From Tabrizicola sp. TH137 (GTDB taxonomy: Bacteria > Pseudomonadota > Alphaproteobacteria > Rhodobacterales > Rhodobacteraceae), in contig NZ_PKRQ01000006.1 of assembly GCF_002855575.1 (NCBI RefSeq), positions 124,001 to 188,000 of the forward strand: a stretch of DNA of 64,000 nucleotides. Reading direction: 5' to 3'. Positions 2 through 39,777 of the stretch are shown in pieces. The notes under the pieces are model-generated. The model saw nothing but the letters and a program-made list of their open reading frames with translations, ran no database searches and was not told where the DNA came from. Both the position numbers and the translations under genes were made by a program. Position 1 is the stretch's first letter, and every line of letters begins with the position of its first letter.

Positions 2-1303
2 AATGGCGCGGTGAATGCCATCGTGTCGATGCCGGATGCGGATGTGCTGATGGATCAGGCGCGGGCGGCGGATGATGCGGTGCCTGCGGGTTGGCTGCAT
101 GGCATTCCGCTGGCGGTGAAGGATCTGGTGGCGGTCAAGGGGATGCGGACGACCTGGGGGTCGCCGATCTATGCCGATCATGTGCCTGCGGCGGATGACC
201 TGCTGGCGGCGCGGATGCGGGCGGCGGGGGCGATCTTCATCGGCAAGACGAACACGCCGGAATGGGGGCATGGGAGCCATTCCTTCAACCCGGTGCATGG
301 GGTGACGCGCAACCCCTATGACCTGACGCGCACGGCGGGGGGATCGTCGGGGGGCGCGGCGGCGGCGCTGGCGACCCGGATGGTGGCCGTGGCGGACGGG
401 TCGGACATGATGGGATCGCTGCGCAATCCGGCGGCCTTCTGCAATGTCTATGGCTTTCGGCCGAGTTACGGATTGGTGCCTGCCGATGCGGTGGGGGATA
501 CTTTCCTTGCCACCATGGCCACCGAAGGGCCGATGGCGCGGACGGTGGAGGATGTGGCGCGGCTGCTGGAGGTGCAGGCGGGGGTAAACCCGGAAGTGCC
601 TTTCGGGCGGGAGTCGGAGCCGTTCGGTGACCTTCTGGCGATGGAGATGCGGGGCAAGCGCATCGGCTGGCTGGGCGATTGGGGCGGGGCCTATCCTTTC
701 GAGCCGGGGATTTTGGAGTTATGCGAAGAGGGTTTGCGCGTGTTTGAGGGGATGGGGGCGGTGGTGGAACCGGTCGCCCCGCCCTTCCCGGCGGAAAAGC
801 TGTGGTTCGCCTGGACGACGATCCGGGCCATGCTGAATGCGGGCGACAAGCAGGCGATGGCGGCGGACCCGGCCAAGCGCGCGCTGATTAAGCCGGAGAG
901 CCTTTGGGAAATCGACCAAGGGTCGAAGGTGACGGCGGCGGAGTTTCATGCGGCGAGCGTGATTCGGTCGAAATGGTATGCGCGGGTGGCGAGGCTGTTC
1001 CGCACGTTCGACGCGCTGGTGATGCCATCGGCGCAGGTCTGGCCCTTTCCGGCGGAGTGGCGCTGGCCTCAGGCGATCGAGGGCCGGGCGATGGACACCT
1101 ATCACCGCTGGATGGAGGTGGTCATCCCGGTGAGCCTTGCCGGGTTGCCGTCGTTGAATGTGCCGGTGGGCTTTGGGGCGCAGGGCCTGCCGATGGGGAT
1201 GCAGGTCTTCGGGGCCTTCGGGACGGATGCGAAGGTGCTGGCCATGGGGCAGCAGTACCATCTGGCGACGGATTGGCCGGGGCGGCGGGTGCCGGTTCTT
1301 TAG
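2..1303 (+). CDS. Amidase-signature-family amidase, 5' end outside the window
   Basis: Amidase signature (AS) family serine hydrolase that cleaves an amide bond; the substrate cannot be told from sequence. The open frame runs in from the window edge (N-G-A-V-N-A-I-V, the family's usual N-terminal motif), so perhaps 40 residues are missing and the GTG at 11 is probably not the start. The Ser-cisSer-Lys triad is visible: Lys in IPLAVKD (about residue 37 of the visible part), the GGSSGG loop near 110-115, and the nucleophile Ser near 136 in GSDMMGSLR. The usual TGGS before the nucleophile is replaced by MMGS. The gene ends six bases before the convergent thpR gene. The family is sure, the substrate unknown. 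Confidence 0.9.
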   Translation, partial: NGAVNAIVSMPDADVLMDQARAADDAVPAGWLHGIPLAVKDLVAVKGMRTTWGSPIYADHVPAADDLLAARMRAAGAIFIGKTNTPEWGHGSHSFNPVHGVTRNPYDLTRTAGGSSGGAAAALATRMVAVADGSDMMGSLRNPAAFCNVYGFRPSYGLVPADAVGDTFLATMATEGPMARTVEDVARLLEVQAGVNPEVPFGRESEPFGDLLAMEMRGKRIGWLGDWGGAYPFEPGILELCEEGLRVFEGMGAVVEPVAPPFPAEKLWFAWTTIRAMLNAGDKQAMAADPAKRALIKPESLWEIDQGSKVTAAEFHAASVIRSKWYARVARLFRTFDALVMPSAQVWPFPAEWRWPQAIEGRAMDTYHRWMEVVIPVSLAGLPSLNVPVGFGAQGLPMGMQVFGAFGTDAKVLAMGQQYHLATDWPGRRVPVL

Positions 1304-1309
1304 CCGCGA

Positions 1310-1849
1310 CTAAAGATCGTAGCGGGCGAGTTCGGAATAGACGCTGCCGCGTTTCGTCAGGCGGGATTCGTAAAGGCAGAAATGGTCCACCACCCATTCG
1401 GGGGTGGTGAAGCTGCTGCCCTGCGCGATGGCGCGTTCGAGGCGGAAGCATTCCTCGGGTGGCGGCGGGGGGAAACGGCCCAGCGTGACATGGGGGGTGA
1501 AGCGGCGGCTTTCGGTGGCGATCCCGGCGCTGCGGGCGGCGTGGTCGAGTTTGGCCTGAAGGCGGGTGAGAGGTTCAGAGGGCGCGACGCCCGCCCAGGC
1601 CGCGCGGGGTTTCGCGCCGCCGAAGAGGCCAAGGGATTGCAGCGACAGGGGGAAGGGCGGGAGGCGGACCTCGGCGAAGCGCTCATGGGCGGCGTGGAGG
1701 ACGGGTTCGGGCTGTTCGCCGAGGAAGACGAGGGTGAGGTGGAAGCTGTCGGGATCGGTCTTTTGCGGGAGGGGCAGCAGGAATTGCTGCACGCGGAGGG
1801 CGGACAGGACCGGGTCCGGCAGGGGAAGGGCGAGGAAGGCGCGGATCAT
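1310..1849 (-). CDS. thpR: RNA 2',3'-cyclic phosphodiesterase (2'-5' RNA ligase family)
   Basis: 179-residue 2H phosphoesterase of the ThpR/LigT family, which opens 2',3'-cyclic phosphates on RNA ends. Both HxTx motifs are present: HLTL in the N-terminal third (after PDSF) and HVTL in the second half (RFTPHVTLGRF). The length fits the family. The ATG at 1849 overlaps the stop of the upstream deacetylase gene by 4 bp (ATGA), which fixes this start over the longer frame. It is the last gene of a three-gene minus-strand operon (glutathione peroxidase, deacetylase, thpR) whose ends all overlap by 4 bp, so translational coupling is likely. Confidence 0.92.
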   Translation of the reverse strand: MIRAFLALPLPDPVLSALRVQQFLLPLPQKTDPDSFHLTLVFLGEQPEPVLHAAHERFAEVRLPPFPLSLQSLGLFGGAKPRAAWAGVAPSEPLTRLQAKLDHAARSAGIATESRRFTPHVTLGRFPPPPPEECFRLERAIAQGSSFTTPEWVVDHFCLYESRLTKRGSVYSELARYDL

Positions 1850-2967
1850 CGGCGGGCCAGATGGGCGAGGCGGGTGGTGATCTCGGGTCGGACGGGGCCT
1901 TCGCGCGGGGGATCGAGCAGGGTTTCGGTCATGTGCGGTTCCGGGGCCGGGCGGGTGCCGCCCCCCCAGGAGAGGGCGCGCAGGATATCGGCCGCATCTT
2001 CGGGCAGGCGGTCGGGGATTTCCAGCCCAGCGAGCCTGGCCCAGAGCGCCGTCCAGCAGCGCCCCACGGACCACGGGTTGTAACCGCCCCCACCGAGCAG
2101 CAGGAGGCGCGGGGCAAGGGGGCGGATTTCGGTGAGCGCCTCCAGATAGGCGCGGTTGGAGAGGGCGAGGCGGGAAAGCGGGTCTTCCAGCAGGCTATCG
2201 GCCCCGGCTTGCAGGACGATGGCCTGCGGCGCATGGGCGGCGAGGCGGGGCAGGATGAGGCCGTGCAGGACGGCGCGCGCCTCGGTATCATTGTAGCCGC
2301 GCGGGACGGGCAGGTTGAAGGCATTGCCGCCCGCATCATCCGTCAGCGCCCCGGTGAAGGGCCAGCGGTTTTCCTCATGCACCGAGATCATCAGAAGGTC
2401 GGGGTCGCCCGCGAAGGCGGGTTCCACGCCGTCGGGGTGATGGGCGTCGAGATCGACATAGGCGAGGCGGGTGAGCCCGGCGCGGCGAAGGGCCATGAGG
2501 GCAAGCACAGGGTCGTTGAGGTAGCAAAAGCCGTTGGCGCGGTCCGGCAGGCCGTGATGGGTGCCACCGCCGGGGACGTGGATCGCGCCCGTGGCATGGC
2601 TGGCCAGCAGTTCGGCGGCCAGCATCACGCCGCCGGCGCCGGTCGCGGGGCGGCGGAACATCTCGGGGAACACCGGGTTCGAGGTCGTGCCCAGATGGTG
2701 GCGGCGGCGGGTGTCGTCATCGACGGTGCCCGTCGCCTCGGCCTGCTGGAGGGCGGCGAGATAGGCGGGGGTGTGGTAGGCGGTCAGCGCGGCGGGCTTG
2801 GCGCGCGGGCTTTGCCGGTAGTGCTGGGGGGGAAGCCAGCCGAGGGCCGTGGCGAGATCCATCACGGTCGAGACGCGCGGCACGCGGAGGGGGTGGTGCC
2901 GCCCGTAGCTGGAGCCGCGATAGATGGCGGAGCCGAAGAAGAGCGGCCCCGGCAGGGGGGATGTCAC
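1846..2967 (-). CDS. Histone deacetylase family protein (AcuC/acetylpolyamine amidohydrolase type)
   Basis: 373-residue class II HDAC-like zinc amidohydrolase; bacterial members deacetylate small acetylated amines or proteins. Motifs seen: GGGTHHG with the active-site His pair, DLDAHHPDG and GADSL supplying the Asp-His-Asp zinc ligands, and the C-terminal GGGGYN loop carrying the substrate-facing Tyr. The start chosen is the GTG at 2967, which overlaps the stop of the upstream peroxidase gene as GTGA; the longer open frame upstream has low-complexity shadow sequence. The 3' end overlaps thpR by 4 bp. The real substrate is unknown; deacetylation of acetylpolyamines or acetoin-type acetyl-CoA synthetase regulation are both known for relatives. 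Confidence 0.9.
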   Translation of the reverse strand: MTSPLPGPLFFGSAIYRGSSYGRHHPLRVPRVSTVMDLATALGWLPPQHYRQSPRAKPAALTAYHTPAYLAALQQAEATGTVDDDTRRRHHLGTTSNPVFPEMFRRPATGAGGVMLAAELLASHATGAIHVPGGGTHHGLPDRANGFCYLNDPVLALMALRRAGLTRLAYVDLDAHHPDGVEPAFAGDPDLLMISVHEENRWPFTGALTDDAGGNAFNLPVPRGYNDTEARAVLHGLILPRLAAHAPQAIVLQAGADSLLEDPLSRLALSNRAYLEALTEIRPLAPRLLLLGGGGYNPWSVGRCWTALWARLAGLEIPDRLPEDAADILRALSWGGGTRPAPEPHMTETLLDPPREGPVRPEITTRLAHLARR

Positions 2968-3494
2968 GGCAGCAGCGCCTCGATCCGGTCGGTCACGGGG
3001 CGGGCGGTGGGGCGCATCACGCTGCCCCAGGTGGCGACGACGGCACCCTCGCCATCCAGCAGCACCTTGTTGAAGTTCCAGGCCGGGGTGAAGCCTTCGG
3101 TTTCGGCCAGCCATTTGTAGAAGGGATGCGCCTCTGCCCCGGTGACGGGGGTGATGTCGGTCATCGGGATGGTGAGGTCGAAATTGACGGCGCAGAATTC
3201 CTTCACCTCTTCCGCGGAGGCGAGTTCCTGGCGGAAATCGTCGGAGGGCACGGCAAGGACGACGAGGCCACGGTCGGCATAGCTGTCATGCAGCGCCTGG
3301 AGATCGTCGAACTGGTCGGCAAAACCGCAGAGCGAGGCGGTGTTCACGACAAGGACGGGGCGGCCCTTGAAGGCATCGAGGTCGATCGTGCCGCCGTCGA
3401 TGGAGGGAAAGCTGAACCCGGCGAAGGCGGCCACAGGCAGGAGGGCGGCCAGGGCGGTGACGAGGGCAGAGGGAAAGAGGCGGGCGCGGGGCAT
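2964..3494 (-). CDS. Exported glutathione peroxidase family protein
   Basis: 176-residue thioredoxin-fold peroxidase with a clear Sec signal peptide (positive start, hydrophobic stretch, cut near VAAFA, about residue 25), so it should act in the periplasm. The peroxidatic Cys is in NTASLCGF (family NVASxCG), and the WNFNK block with the catalytic Trp and Asn is present. The position that normally holds the catalytic Gln in the NQF motif reads SDDF instead, so the tetrad is altered. It is the first gene of the operon with the deacetylase and thpR. It is probably a thiol (thioredoxin-dependent) peroxidase rather than a strict glutathione enzyme. Confidence 0.9.
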   Translation of the reverse strand: MPRARLFPSALVTALAALLPVAAFAGFSFPSIDGGTIDLDAFKGRPVLVVNTASLCGFADQFDDLQALHDSYADRGLVVLAVPSDDFRQELASAEEVKEFCAVNFDLTIPMTDITPVTGAEAHPFYKWLAETEGFTPAWNFNKVLLDGEGAVVATWGSVMRPTARPVTDRIEALLP

Positions 3495-3641
3495 AATCGG
3501 ATGTCTCGAAAGCTGTGATGGCCGGGAGATAAACCGGGCGGCGCGCGGGTCAAATCAACTCTGCGCGGGCGGGGACGGGCGCGCAGGGCCGTGCCGAATG
3601 GCCATGTCTTGCCGCGGTCCGGACAAATTTCCGTGTTTTTC

Positions 3642-3671
3642 TTGGTGTTTGGTCACAAGCCATGCCATATT
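3642..3671 (+). promoter_or_regulatory. Possible sigma70-type promoter of the Nudix gene
   Basis: TTGGTG at 3642-3647 and CATATT at 3666-3671 are separated by 18 nt in an AT-richer patch of the gap between the divergent peroxidase and Nudix genes. The implied leader is about 45 nt. The match is weak and is given only because nothing better lies in the gap. Confidence 0.25.
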
Positions 3672-3722
3672 GTCGGCAGAGCAGGAACCCCGGACAAGAA
3701 CCGGATCGAACGATCGGGCGGG

Positions 3723-4214
3723 ATGATGAAAGGCAGCGGCAACAGCCAGATGTTTGGCCTTGGCGAAGACGGGCCGCGCAGCCAGTACGGTGCGCTGTGC
3801 TGGCGCATGCATCGGGGGCGGGTGGAGGTTCTGTTGATCACCAGCCGCGATACCGGGCGCTGGGTCATTCCCAAGGGCTGGCCCATGGCCGACAAGCGGC
3901 CGGAAGAGGCGGCGGCGCTGGAAGCCTGGGAAGAGGCCGGGGTTACGGGTGAAAGCGCCGGTGCGGCGCTGGGTCTTTATTCCTATGACAAGGCGCGCAA
4001 GTCCAAGGAGGCGCTGCCCTGCGTGGTGTCGGTCTATCCGCTGAAGGTGGCGCGGCTGGCGGCACGCTTTCCGGAACGGGCCGAACGGCGGCGGCGCTGG
4101 TTCAGCGCCGAACGGGCCGCGCGGCTGGTGGCGGAACCGGAATTGCGGGCGCTGCTTCTGCATCTGGCCAGCGACCCCGCCGCGTTGCAGCCGGACGCGG
4201 TTGCATCTGCCTGA
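3723..4214 (+). CDS. Nudix hydrolase
   Basis: 163-residue Nudix-fold phosphohydrolase. The Nudix box is present from GWPMADKR to EAWEEAGV (about residues 58-80), with the metal-binding EAWEE core; the Arg of the REUxEE consensus is replaced by Leu. The sequence before the box (ITSRDTGRWVIPKGWP) is of the diphosphoinositol-polyphosphate phosphohydrolase-like type common in alphaproteobacteria. Two ATG codons in a row (3723 and 3726) are plausible starts; the frame upstream is open but reads as non-coding. The substrate is not determinable. It is a single-gene unit divergent from the peroxidase operon. Confidence 0.9.
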   Translation: MMKGSGNSQMFGLGEDGPRSQYGALCWRMHRGRVEVLLITSRDTGRWVIPKGWPMADKRPEEAAALEAWEEAGVTGESAGAALGLYSYDKARKSKEALPCVVSVYPLKVARLAARFPERAERRRRWFSAERAARLVAEPELRALLLHLASDPAALQPDAVASA

Positions 4215-4223
4215 AATCCGGTC

Positions 4224-4251
4224 TTGACTGCGCGGCCGGGGCCTTTAGCTC
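4224..4251 (+). promoter_or_regulatory. Possible promoter of the DUF1178 gene
   Basis: TTGACT at 4224-4229 followed 16 nt later by TAGCTC at 4246-4251, in the 124-nt gap before the DUF1178 gene. The -35 is close to consensus and the -10 is poor. Confidence 0.3.
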
Positions 4252-4338
4252 CGCCCCTGAGGAACCGGACAAGACCGCAGCGACAGACCTGCCCATGACG
4301 ACCCAAGGCCCGACCATGCAGCCCTTCGGTGATCCGCG

Positions 4339-4758
4339 ATGATCCGTTTCAGCCTGAAATGCGACCAGGACCACGGCTTTGAAAGCTGGTTCCCCTCGGG
4401 TGCGGCCTATGAGTCCCTGAAGGCGGCGGGCCATGTGTCCTGCCCGGTCTGCGGGTCGGTGGTGGTGGAGAAGGCGCTGATGGCCCCGGCTGTGCGCCCG
4501 GCGCGCGAGGAGGCGGGGCCGCTGCGCGGGGCGGAGACGCCGATGGAACAGGCCATCGCGGCGCTGAAGAAGCAGGTCGAGGAAAATTCCGAATATGTCG
4601 GCATGAACTTCGTCGCCGAGGCGCGGCGCATCCATCAGGGCGAGGCGCCGGAGCGATCCATCCATGGCGAGGCGCGGCCGGAGGAGGCGAAGAAGCTGAT
4701 CGAGGAGGGGGTGCCGGTGGCCCCCCTGCCCTTCCTGCCCGCCCGCAAGGTGCAGTGA
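4339..4758 (+). CDS. DUF1178 family protein
   Basis: 139-residue member of the DUF1178 family, widespread in alphaproteobacteria and of unknown function. The N-terminus MIRFSLKCDQDHGFESWF and the CPVCG pair near residue 35 form a probable zinc-ribbon knuckle with the Cys at position 8. A helical charged middle follows (MEQAIAALKKQVEENSEYVG, then FVAEARRIHQGE), which is the family's hallmark block, and a short Pro-rich tail ends in FLPARKVQ. Full length for the family. It converges on the ferredoxin gene with a 30-nt gap. Confidence 0.9.
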   Translation: MIRFSLKCDQDHGFESWFPSGAAYESLKAAGHVSCPVCGSVVVEKALMAPAVRPAREEAGPLRGAETPMEQAIAALKKQVEENSEYVGMNFVAEARRIHQGEAPERSIHGEARPEEAKKLIEEGVPVAPLPFLPARKVQ

Positions 4759-4788: not shown

Positions 4789-5112
<324 letters not shown>

Positions 5113-5270: not shown

Positions 5271-5331
5271 GAGAAATATCCTCGGGGGGTGAATTGGCGC
5301 AAGGCGCCAAGAGGGGGGCAGACAGCCCCCC
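5271..5331. repeat. Intergenic hairpin element (GAGAAATATCCTCGGGGG type)
   Basis: The block begins GAGAAATATCCTCGGGGG, then carries two hairpins: TTGGCGC/GCGCCAA (5294-5310, loop AAG) and GGGGGGC/GCCCCCC (5313-5331, loop AGACA). The second part is similar to the reverse complement of the gap at 53.4 kb, and the first part recalls the GAGTATTT element at 60.6 kb. These look like members of a dispersed intergenic repeat family. It lies upstream of both flanking divergent genes, so it is not a simple terminator. Confidence 0.5.
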
Positions 5332-5352
5332 TGCAACGGTGCGGCCGGGCGC

Positions 5353-5388
5353 TTGCCCTGAAGCGAAGGATGTTCTATCTTTGTTCTC
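5353..5388 (+). promoter_or_regulatory. LexA-box promoter (GTTC-N7-GTTC) of the orphan OB-fold gene
   Basis: A perfect alphaproteobacterial SOS box GTTC-N7-GTTC lies at 5372-5386, ending two bases before the ATG at 5389. A promoter can be drawn through it: TTGCCC at 5353-5358, a 17-nt spacer, TATCTT at 5376-5381 inside the box. The predicted start of transcription falls on or next to the ATG, so the message would be leaderless. LexA bound here would cover the -10 region. The box is seen directly; the promoter and leaderless reading are inference. Confidence 0.8.
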
Positions 5389-5850
5389 ATGACCCCATGG
5401 CTGACCCCCGCCCTGCCCCCCGCCCGGCCCGGAGCCCCTGCCCTGCCCGCCCGGCAATGGCTGGCGCGTGACCGCCGTCCCGGCGACTGGCCGCGCCCGC
5501 CTTCGGCGCTGGTGGCGGCGCGGCTGGACGAGCCGCCGGCAGGGGCGCGGGTCTGCGTGGCGGGGCTGGTGCTGGTGCGGCAGCGGCCCGGCACGGCGAA
5601 GGGGGTGATCTTCATCACGCTGGAGGATGAGACGGGCACCTGCAATGTGGTCGTCTGGGCGAAGGTCTATGAACGGTTCCGCCGCGCGGTGATCGCGGGG
5701 CGGATGCTGCGGGTGACGGGCCGGGTGCAGCGCGAGGCGGGCGTGGTGCATGTGGTGGCCGAGGGGATCGAGGATCTTTCGGCGATGCTGGATCAGCTTC
5801 TGCGTCCCGATTTCCGGCATGACGGGGTGCGGGCCGCCGATCAGCCCTGA
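5389..5850 (+). CDS. Orphan OB-fold protein matching the C-terminus of error-prone polymerase DnaE2
   Basis: 153 residues. From about residue 55 ([16 protein letters not shown], then [38 protein letters not shown]) the protein matches the last domain, an OB-fold, of DnaE2/ImuC translesion polymerases. The polymerase, PHP and helix-hairpin parts (about 900 residues) are absent, and no imuA or imuB lies nearby. The first 50 residues are Pro/Ala/Arg-rich and unrecognised. The frame is intact, has normal GC-rich codon use, and is led by a perfect LexA box. It is either a remnant of a lost imuA-imuB-dnaE2 cassette that kept its SOS promoter, or a functional stand-alone DNA-damage OB protein. The homology is strong; the role is unknown. 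Confidence 0.8.
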
Positions 5851-5939
5851 CATGCGGCCCTGCGGGCTTTCGGGCCGGGCGCTTTGCCGTTATGGTGCCG
5901 AACCGTGATCCGGGCGAACCGGACGGGCAGCGAGGTGGC

Positions 5940-6479
5940 ATGAAACGGGCAGTGATGGGTCTTGGCCTTGCGGTGGCGGCACTGGCTGCCTGCCAGGGGA
6001 CGGGGGTGCCGAAGGCGCCCGGACGGCTGGACCTTTCGGCGGAAGTGGTGCGGCTGGATCGACCGGGGCCGCCCGCCCGGCCCGAAGGGGCCTGCTGGGA
6101 AAGCGACGTGACGCCTGCGGTGATCGAGACGGTGACCGAACAGGTGGTGGTGACCCCGGAAGAGAGGGATGCCGAAGGCCGCATCCTGACCCCGGCCAGC
6201 TATCGCACCGATACCCGCGCCCGCATCGTGCAGGACCGCGAGGAAGTCTGGTTCCGCGCCCCCTGCCCTGCGGATTACACGGTGGATTTCGTGGCCAGCC
6301 TGCAACGCGCGCTGAAGGCGCGGGGCTATTACCTGCTGCCGCTGACGGCGCAGATGGATGACGGCACGCGCGATGCGGTGCGGCGGTTCCAGGCGGACCG
6401 GGGGTTGGACAGCCCGCTCCTGTCGCTGGCGGCGGCGCGGGATCTGGGGCTGCTGCCGGTCGGTCTGGACGAGTTGTGA
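5940..6479 (+). CDS. Lipoprotein with C-terminal peptidoglycan-binding domain
   Basis: 179 residues. The N-terminus MKRAVMGLGLAVAALAAC has a lipobox (LAAC, Cys 18), so it should be acylated and exported. Residues from about 120 (YTVDFVASLQRALKARGYY to AVRRFQADRGL) form a PG_binding_1 repeat that binds peptidoglycan. The middle (about 45-110) has no family I recognise. The ATG at 5940 follows GAGG and fits the signal sequence; the longer frame from 5892 does not. It probably anchors the outer membrane to the cell wall or senses it. It converges on degP across a strong bidirectional terminator. Confidence 0.85.
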   Translation: MKRAVMGLGLAVAALAACQGTGVPKAPGRLDLSAEVVRLDRPGPPARPEGACWESDVTPAVIETVTEQVVVTPEERDAEGRILTPASYRTDTRARIVQDREEVWFRAPCPADYTVDFVASLQRALKARGYYLLPLTAQMDDGTRDAVRRFQADRGLDSPLLSLAAARDLGLLPVGLDEL

Positions 6480-38832: not shown

Positions 38833-39777
38833 TCACAAGGTCCGCAGCGTATCGCCCAGCCAGGGCCAGAGCGCCCGGGTGGGCTGCACGACCTGACGGT
38901 CCAGCAGCCGCCGCAGCCGCACCGCCACCTCCCCCGGCATGTCGCGCAGGACGCCCGCGCGGGCTTGCAGCGACAGGGTCCGCCCCGGCGGGTCGAAGGG
39001 CAGCGGCTGCAACTCCACCGCCTCGCGGAACCGCGCGGCATGGTGCAGCGCGAGCGGGGTGAGGATCGTCCAGCCGGCCCCGGCCGCGACCATGGCAAGG
39101 ATCGGGGTATAGCTGTCCAGTTCGAACCGCGCCCCGATGCGCAGATTCTGCCGCGCCAGATGGGCGGCGATCTGCCGGCCCATCAGATGCCGGGTCGTGT
39201 ACTGGATCAGGGGCAGGCTGGCCGGATCGCCCCCTTTCGGCGCGACAGCGAGGAAGGGTTCGGCCAGAAGCGGATGCACTTCGCGCCAGCCTTCGGGCGC
39301 CTCAAGCGCGGCATCGGCGGCCACGACCATGTCGAGCGCGCGGTTCGAAAGCTGTTCGAGCAGGTGATGGCTGGCCCCGGTTTCCAGCAGGAAGCGGCAG
39401 CCCTTCAATTCCGTTGCCAGTTCGGCCAGAAGCTGCGGCGTCACTTCGGCATCCAGGTCCTCGATCATCCCCAGCCGCAGCGTCGTGAGCCCCGACAGGT
39501 CGGAAAGGGCCAGTTCGGCCCGCGCCTCGGCCTCGGCGTTCAGGATCACTTGTGCGTGGCGGCGGAACATCGTGCCCGCGGGCGTCATCCGCAGCGGCCT
39601 TGCGCTGCGGTCCATCAGAACCGTGCCCAGCGCCGTTTCGAGCGAGGAGAGCTGCTGGCTGACGGCAGAGGGGCTCACGCCCAGACGGCGGGCGGCGGCA
39701 GAGATCGCCCCTTCCTCGGCTGCGGCGAGAAAGACCTCGATCCCCCAGAGGGTGACGCGCCCCTGGCCTTCGGTCAT
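38833..39777 (-). CDS. LysR-family transcriptional regulator
   Basis: 314 residues. N-terminal winged helix (FLAAAEEGAISAAARRLGVS, then PSAVSQQLSSLETALG, about 13-50), followed by the two-lobe effector domain (LRLGMIEDLDAEVTPQLLAEL and on). The ATG at 39777 opens MTEGQGRVTLWGIEVF. It lies 21 nt downstream of phaR on the same strand, so it may be co-transcribed. Its target is unknown; no gene is divergent from it, the usual LysR arrangement. Confidence 0.92.
   Translation of the reverse strand: MTEGQGRVTLWGIEVFLAAAEEGAISAAARRLGVSPSAVSQQLSSLETALGTVLMDRSARPLRMTPAGTMFRRHAQVILNAEAEARAELALSDLSGLTTLRLGMIEDLDAEVTPQLLAELATELKGCRFLLETGASHHLLEQLSNRALDMVVAADAALEAPEGWREVHPLLAEPFLAVAPKGGDPASLPLIQYTTRHLMGRQIAAHLARQNLRIGARFELDSYTPILAMVAAGAGWTILTPLALHHAARFREAVELQPLPFDPPGRTLSLQARAGVLRDMPGEVAVRLRRLLDRQVVQPTRALWPWLGDTLRTL

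Follow-up and report, generated by a model that had tools for sequence, protein, structure and literature searches.

A DnaE2 polymerase encoded as two genes in Rhodobacteraceae, with its OB domain as a separate gene behind a LexA box

In Tabrizicola sp. TH137, the damage polymerase DnaE2 is encoded by two genes on different contigs, one for a polymerase that ends before the C-terminal OB domain and one for the OB domain alone. That DnaE2 is split in this way is practically certain, and the same state was found in more than 100 sampled species. The OB gene was encountered in a stretch of 64,000 nucleotides (C35:124001-188000 of the genome, hereafter the window), for which the original prediction had described a perfect GTTC-N7-GTTC box 2 nt before the ATG of an intact 153-codon frame containing the OB domain of DnaE2. 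Both the box (5372-5386) and the frame (5389-5850) were confirmed; a two-gene DnaE2 was not foreseen there.

The OB gene and the polymerase half of DnaE2

According to the open reading frame analysis, the frame opens with the ATG at 5389 and ends at 5850 on the forward strand, stop included, and encodes 153 residues. Residues 55-130 match the OB fold of Pfam (PF01336, E 2.5e-14), and residues 42-138 (5512-5802) correspond to positions 944-1040 of the 1047 positions of the DnaE2 profile NF004225 (E 5.6e-32), which is likewise matched by 54/54 aligned stand-alone OB sequences. No Pfam match to PHP, polymerase core or HhH was obtained for the protein, and its NF004225 match is restricted to positions 944-1040; judged from these matches, it is a part of DnaE2 and not a DnaE2. 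Ahead of the domain, a variable N-terminal linker (residues 1-33, 5389-5487) leads to the signature WPRPP (residues 34-38, 5488-5502), which recurs in similar form in 103 of 105 stand-alone OB proteins and of which W34, P37 and P38 are invariant among the 54 aligned sequences. The protein closes with a new C-terminal tail, RAADQP (5830-5847). The core of the gene is under purifying selection, with a median pairwise dN/dS of 0.095 for WPRPP plus OB domain (18 genus sequences, 152 pairs) and of 0.68 for the linker (18 genus sequences, 142 pairs).

The AlphaFold2 model of the OB protein, built from 54 sequences, reached a mean pLDDT of 80.9 with values mostly above 90 in the OB core and low values in the tail and most of the linker, while the remaining four models were poorer (47.6-60.5). 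Foldseek matched the OB folds of Stn1/Ten1, CST, RPA and class II tRNA synthetases, with a best E of 3e-6 and low TM-scores. In a sequence profile search, the DNA polymerase III alpha subunit (5fku) was matched at E 0.022, with two archaeal RPA14 chains ranking above it (E 0.0072 and 0.01).

Two neighbours of the OB gene, both outside the system, are a 2Fe-2S ferredoxin gene (fdx, Pfam Fer2) on the reverse strand at 4789-5112 and a peptidoglycan-binding lipoprotein-like gene (Pfam PG_binding_1) on the forward strand at 5931-6479. Among 80 named loci, the ferredoxin gene accompanies the OB gene in 79, the lipoprotein gene in 52 and degP in 58, these counts being minima due to the short flanks. 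A scan of the window with Rfam gave no match.

The rest of DnaE2 was found on another contig at C33:195217-198036 as an intact 940-codon gene within a 952-codon open frame. Its product covers positions 4-941 of NF004225 with 1205.5-1205.8 bits against a cut-off of 939, and exceeds the Pfam cut-offs for PF07733, PF17657 and PF14579, with PF02811 (PHP) falling just under (26.3 vs 26.4 bits). The genome profile search returned three NF004225 matches in all, namely this core, the window gene and a DnaE-type polymerase on C11, which stays below the cut-off with 598.4 bits and was taken as the replicative one. The C33 core ends with the residues ...RAHPMALLRPWLTPEAA, and a perfect LexA box, GTTCCTATAATGTTC, has its first base 46 nt before the ATG. 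In the two genes combined, PHP (by the match just below cut-off), Pol3 alpha, fingers, HhH and OB are all present. Since the core (4-941) and the OB protein (944-1040) add up to one DnaE2 almost exactly, the arrangement points to a gene fission at the boundary with the OB domain.

ImuB is encoded on the contig of the core gene (C33:216452-218122), and C35 carries an ImuA homologue (C35:286444-286971) whose matched stretch fits NF033429 below its cut-off (34.2 bits vs 150, E 2.2e-8). The original claim that polymerase, imuA and imuB are missing holds within the 64-kb window but not for the genome, in which all of them are present on C33 and C35. All components of an imuA-imuB-dnaE2 set exist, though not as a single cassette: OB gene, dnaE2 core, imuB and imuA homologue lie at four separate places, and DnaE2 lacks its OB domain. 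One of the two alternatives originally offered was a deletion that spared no more of the cassette than operator and terminal domain. The gene would then be a remnant with a decaying frame, and this would suit the window, which contains nothing of DnaE2 but its end. Against it stand the DnaE2 core, imuB and the imuA homologue elsewhere in the genome, more than 100 homologous loci of the same architecture, the low dN/dS of the core, and the conserved neighbourhood with its nearly constant ferredoxin gene. The copy is neither unique nor decayed; the remnant reading is refuted by this conservation, its probability being minimal, and the window OB gene is genuine.

Promoter anatomy and LexA boxes

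The window gene is preceded by the pattern TTGCCC-N17-TATCTT on the forward strand. The -35-like hexamer TTGCCC (5353-5358) stands 17 bp before the -10-like hexamer TATCTT (5376-5381), which lies inside the LexA box GTTCTATCTTTGTTC (5372-5386). All evidence on boxes is based on consensus matching. A lone box is unremarkable in 64 kb, considering that two perfect GTTC-N7-GTTC boxes were observed in the window vs 1.12 expected and that at least two occurred in 31 of 100 shuffles. The second of them (39343-39357) is located within a LysR-like reading frame and probably arose by chance.

The significance of the box before the OB gene derives from its conservation. For this, 126 OB loci (112 distinct) were compared, comprising the own locus, the genus set, 28 of the best family matches and the best 80 of 416 relatives; as the most similar loci were chosen, distant members are under-sampled in these counts. 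A perfect box was present at 105 of the 112 distinct loci and missing at seven. The ATG follows 1-3 nt past the box in 95 of the 105 boxed loci (1 nt in 13, 2 nt in 75, 3 nt in 7) and not in the other ten. Including one GTG start, 96 promoters were aligned, in which TTG precedes the hexamer by 16 or 17 bp in 88 cases and TAnnnT begins at box position 5 in 80. The hexamer spacing places the predicted transcription start at the start codon. No Shine-Dalgarno-like motif was seen in any of the 96 promoters, a count which is not independent of the box because almost all of the stretch examined is occupied by it. With the -10 inside the LexA box and the start at the ATG, a leaderless transcript with a LexA-covered -10 is predicted, and the OB gene would be a leaderless SOS gene under LexA control. 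The originally proposed stand-alone, probably damage-induced OB protein with its start just behind the LexA site is thereby borne out by boxed homologues of similar length at more than 100 loci. At one deviating locus (G064; L070, L233 and L259 near 8511), the usual ATG behind the box is missing and the next in-frame ATG follows 33 nt on; degP- and hflC/K-like genes lie downstream as in the window, and that genome has no DnaE2 match at E 1e-200.

The split polymerases feature boxes as well. Within 80 nt upstream, 51 of 55 carried a LexA box (34 perfect, 17 with one mismatch) and four carried none, compared with one perfect box and 59 at up to one mismatch among 1713 equally long control windows placed within the genes. 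Homologues of imuA and imuB were found in 35/35 chosen genomes. Moreover, a perfect box in reverse orientation stands upstream of 12/12 imuA and 10/10 imuB loci fetched from the split clade (L275-L286, L236, L258 and L287-L294, including the imuB loci from the own genome and G283). These boxed single loci indicate that the cassette is to a large extent dispersed as individual genes. In some split genomes, imuB is still adjacent to dnaE2 (G283), and imuA, imuB and dnaE2 stand side by side in fused genomes such as G243, G110, G126 and G259 as well as on the plasmid contig of G048. On the plasmid of Dinoroseobacter shibae, a gene for an SOS-response-associated peptidase (L255 2595-3275; NC_009957 57594-58274) with a perfect LexA box upstream precedes imuA-imuB-dnaE2.

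Distribution and origin of the split

Within the genus, a separate OB gene occurs in 18 of 19 genomes and a DnaE2 that exceeds the cut-off and ends before the OB domain in 17 of 19. DnaE2 is in two pieces in G006; G014 has only a piece below cut-off, and the 1.5-Mb G009 shows neither gene. In the single-contig genome G011, the two halves of DnaE2 are located at 1.52 and 4.03 Mb. The family sample of 296 genomes contained an OB match in 266 and a DnaE2 match at E 1e-200 in 265. At least 134 of the 296 hold the OB domain in a short frame; among the 149 genomes listed, 134 were short and 15 had it in frames of more than 1100 codons, the OB copy on the plasmid of G048 also belonging to a long frame. 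The 134 include G190 (the second fission discussed below), G026, whose match lies at a contig start, G175, and four genomes in which the match runs over a TGA (G274, G146, G302 and G145). DnaE2 was present in 131 of the 134 listed short-OB genomes vs 4 of the 30 without OB, the other 26 having neither (Fisher p 8e-23, relatedness ignored). A short OB without DnaE2 match at E 1e-200 was found in G064, G074 and G304, and DnaE2 without detected OB in G057, G077, G160 and G177.

The order sample of 121 genomes, which overlaps the family sample, was bimodal with 38 short frames of 128-330 codons, 79 of at least 1060 codons and four without any. In the class sample, an OB match was obtained in 200 of 387 genomes. 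Outside the family, ten of the matches listed were located in frames of 183-650 codons and all others in frames of at least 1001. Five of these ten lie at contig starts (G436:C68, G625, G574, G704 and G516), and the remaining ones are G635, G546, G745, G432 and G707, with G635 looking broken (polymerase piece of 267 codons). Polymerases were gathered from 60 fetched stretches, the own locus and 15 genus loci; 55 of them represent the main-clade split, and no OB was found in the frame or fetched flank of any of these 55. A chromosome record named as an Exiguobacterium profundum MAG (SSD5, CP059262.1, L110) contains the OB gene of Rhodobacterales together with its box and the adjacent ferredoxin gene; this species name is probably incorrect.

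An assembly or gene-calling artefact would come to mind for the own genome with its 38 contigs, but it is refuted by the same split state in genomes of one to four contigs (G011, G018, G002 and G284) and in more than 100 sampled species, and its probability is vanishingly small. A mobile-element origin was checked as well. It met with a single weak phage record (41.8% identity over 52% of the query) and with 828 matching plasmid records, none of which had one place covering 80% of the query; of the 15 plasmid matches listed, 14 were annotated as error-prone DNA polymerase, and one (H11) was situated in an unannotated record.

In a tree of 855 core columns and 49 rows, the 27 chosen split polymerases form one clade together with the fused G276 (SH-aLRT 99), and the sister of this clade is the fused pair G260 and G301 (support 98). 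An 81-row polymerase tree gave the same picture; L220, L261 and L263 were counted as fused, and L263 was left out of the 49-row tree. G276 thus has a fused DnaE2 inside the split clade, and its assembly also holds a stand-alone OB. The tree of the OB domain itself placed all 105 stand-alone OBs on one side (support 0.905) with G260, G301, G190 and one outgroup sequence, details being left unsettled by the short length of the domain. In G190 (L216), the polymerase frame (1097-4357) is followed by an OB gene (5313-5870) which starts 955 nt after the polymerase stop and has its own LexA box 5 nt before the ATG. Its polymerase groups with the fused G034 (support 98), which looks like a second and apparently independent fission.

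A search for the ferredoxin gene covered 14 genomes that have a fused DnaE2 or stand close to the root of the split clade, one of them being G190. Five genomes with fused DnaE2 showed the ferredoxin-lipoprotein pair (G041, G288, G065, G212 and G243), and in none of the five was there an OB match or perfect box between the two genes; one-mismatch boxes occurred at this site in four of them. The pair was not seen in the rest of the 14, the fused sisters G260 and G301 included. The most economical interpretation is a gain of the OB gene at this position, which speaks against a deletion in place.

Split and fused species coexist in seven mixed genera (g39, g186, g234, g296, g10, g109 and g245), where no split-type OB match was found in any of the ten fused genomes. 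This comparison was made by genus codes at E 1e-8, and a single DnaE2 was seen in two of the ten (G027 and G126); one genome of a mixed genus, G351, has a second, 53%-identical OB match in a 204-codon frame. The occurrence of both states within one genus suggests repeated replacement of the whole system. Dinoroseobacter shibae, which G048 probably represents, seems to carry both forms, the split one on the chromosome and the fused one on plasmid pDSHI03.

Function and meaning of a two-gene DnaE2

The residues of the OB domain were largely retained after the separation: in 42 of the 52 conserved columns of stand-alone OBs, at least 80% of 17 fused OBs have the same residue. The C-terminal motif SRDF[H/R], which was reported for about 77% of DnaE2 (PMC3919608), occurs in 16 of 18 fused family members and in none of the 105 stand-alone OB proteins or 56 separate polymerases (55 of the main clade and G190). 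The separate OB of G190 retains an SRDFH tail. As the SRDF[H/R] tail was lost from both halves, cutting an ordinary DnaE2 in two would not by itself yield the present pair. Instead, 61 of the 105 stand-alone OB proteins end on DQP, and this conserved tail is a possible contact motif.

It is proposed that in the ancestor of a large Rhodobacterales clade, DnaE2 was cut between the HhH region and the OB domain, just past the conserved LLRxxLTP. The polymerase gene would have retained PHP, polymerase core and HhH, while the OB domain would have been placed between fdx and the lipoprotein gene, behind a promoter with its -10 inside a LexA box and a leaderless start at the ATG. Upon DNA damage, LexA would leave the separately placed OB, dnaE2-core, imuB and imuA genes, and the OB protein might then join the OB-less DnaE2 in trans within an ImuA-ImuB-DnaE2 mutasome and supply it with a surface for binding the single-stranded template. 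In fused DnaE polymerases, the OB domain forms the C-terminal end of the chain and lies beside the template strand.

That the OB protein works in trans with the OB-less DnaE2 is considered probable from sequence comparison. Such a partnership is suggested by the co-occurrence of both genes, the boxes on both, the conserved OB residues and the pattern in mixed genera. Counting against it are the three genomes with OB and no DnaE2, the four with DnaE2 and no OB, the presence of both forms in G048, and the loss of the SRDF tail. In published mutasome models, the main contacts of DnaE2 to ImuB lie in PHP and HhH (PMC12926913). Both are kept in the core, so that it could still join ImuB, with the OB protein added in trans.

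Conversely, the OB protein could act alone or with another partner, by coating ssDNA or by serving the clamp, DinB or DnaE1; the shortened DnaE2 would in that case function OB-less. The genomes that keep the gene without a DnaE2 match at E 1e-200 (3/134), the loss of the SRDF tail, the presence of a DQP tail in 61/105, and the modelled DnaE2-ImuB contacts primarily via PHP and HhH (PMC12926913) are in line with this. Nevertheless, DnaE2 co-occurs in 131/134 genomes, residues of the fused OB are retained in 42/52 columns, and no split-type OB match was found in the ten fused genomes of mixed genera, which makes an independent role rather unlikely.

A covalent rejoining of the two halves has to be weighed as well. 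In cyanobacteria, the replicative polymerase DnaE is likewise a C-family enzyme encoded by two distant genes, whose products are rejoined by split inteins. This precedent apart, the own core ends only 8 residues past RAHPMALLR, the tails behind this motif measure 17 residues in the median and 85 at most in 56 separate polymerases, and the OB protein begins with a short variable linker; no intein-like Pfam match was found in either own half. Protein splicing is therefore extremely improbable for the present pair, and association in trans remains the preferred reading.

Compared with known systems, the fused DnaE2/ImuC (NF004225) offers the same sum of domains, the same OB residues and the same SOS setting. 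Its representative on pDSHI03 is one chain of 1116 residues with an SRDFH end in an imuA-imuB-dnaE2 row, whereas here two genes are present, the SRDF tail is missing and the genes are scattered. Similarly, the alphaproteobacterial imuA-imuB-dnaE2 cassette consists of the same parts with LexA boxes, but here the genes are scattered and the OB is separate; a study from 2006 reportedly dealt with the spread of this cassette. Several DnaE2 sequences were described to lack the CTD and also the OB domain (PMC3919608); the parts of that paper considered mention neither a gene for a separate OB nor a clade or LexA control. The DnaE2X modules with iPolY and a separate ImuB-C (PMC12926913) resemble the present case in that a mutasome subunit may be seen as split in two. 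There, however, ImuB is the divided part, and a detached DnaE2 OB is not described in the section considered. Literature searches and the parts covered of PMC3919608, PMC12926913, PMC9426580, PMC6473078 and PMC3323433 yielded no account of a detached gene for the DnaE2 OB, and the two-gene DnaE2 seems to be previously undescribed.

A more far-reaching interpretation regards the OB domain as a detachable and separately dosed on-switch with four-gene AND logic, which evolved by at least two fissions (main clade and G190). This is advanced tentatively and is rather doubtful. If true, the OB-less DnaE2 would show little or no activity before the leaderless, LexA-gated OB protein is made, and mutagenesis would need the coincident induction of four scattered genes.

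The split means that a damage polymerase is encoded as two genes in a large Rhodobacter- and Roseobacter-like group, and it offers an explanation for those DnaE2 proteins in which the OB domain is missing. The OB promoter can serve as a compact model for leaderless-looking genes whose -10 is overlaid by a LexA site. Moreover, the polymerase core and the template-binding domain are naturally separated in trans, which offers a clean genetic test of the role of the OB domain in translesion synthesis.
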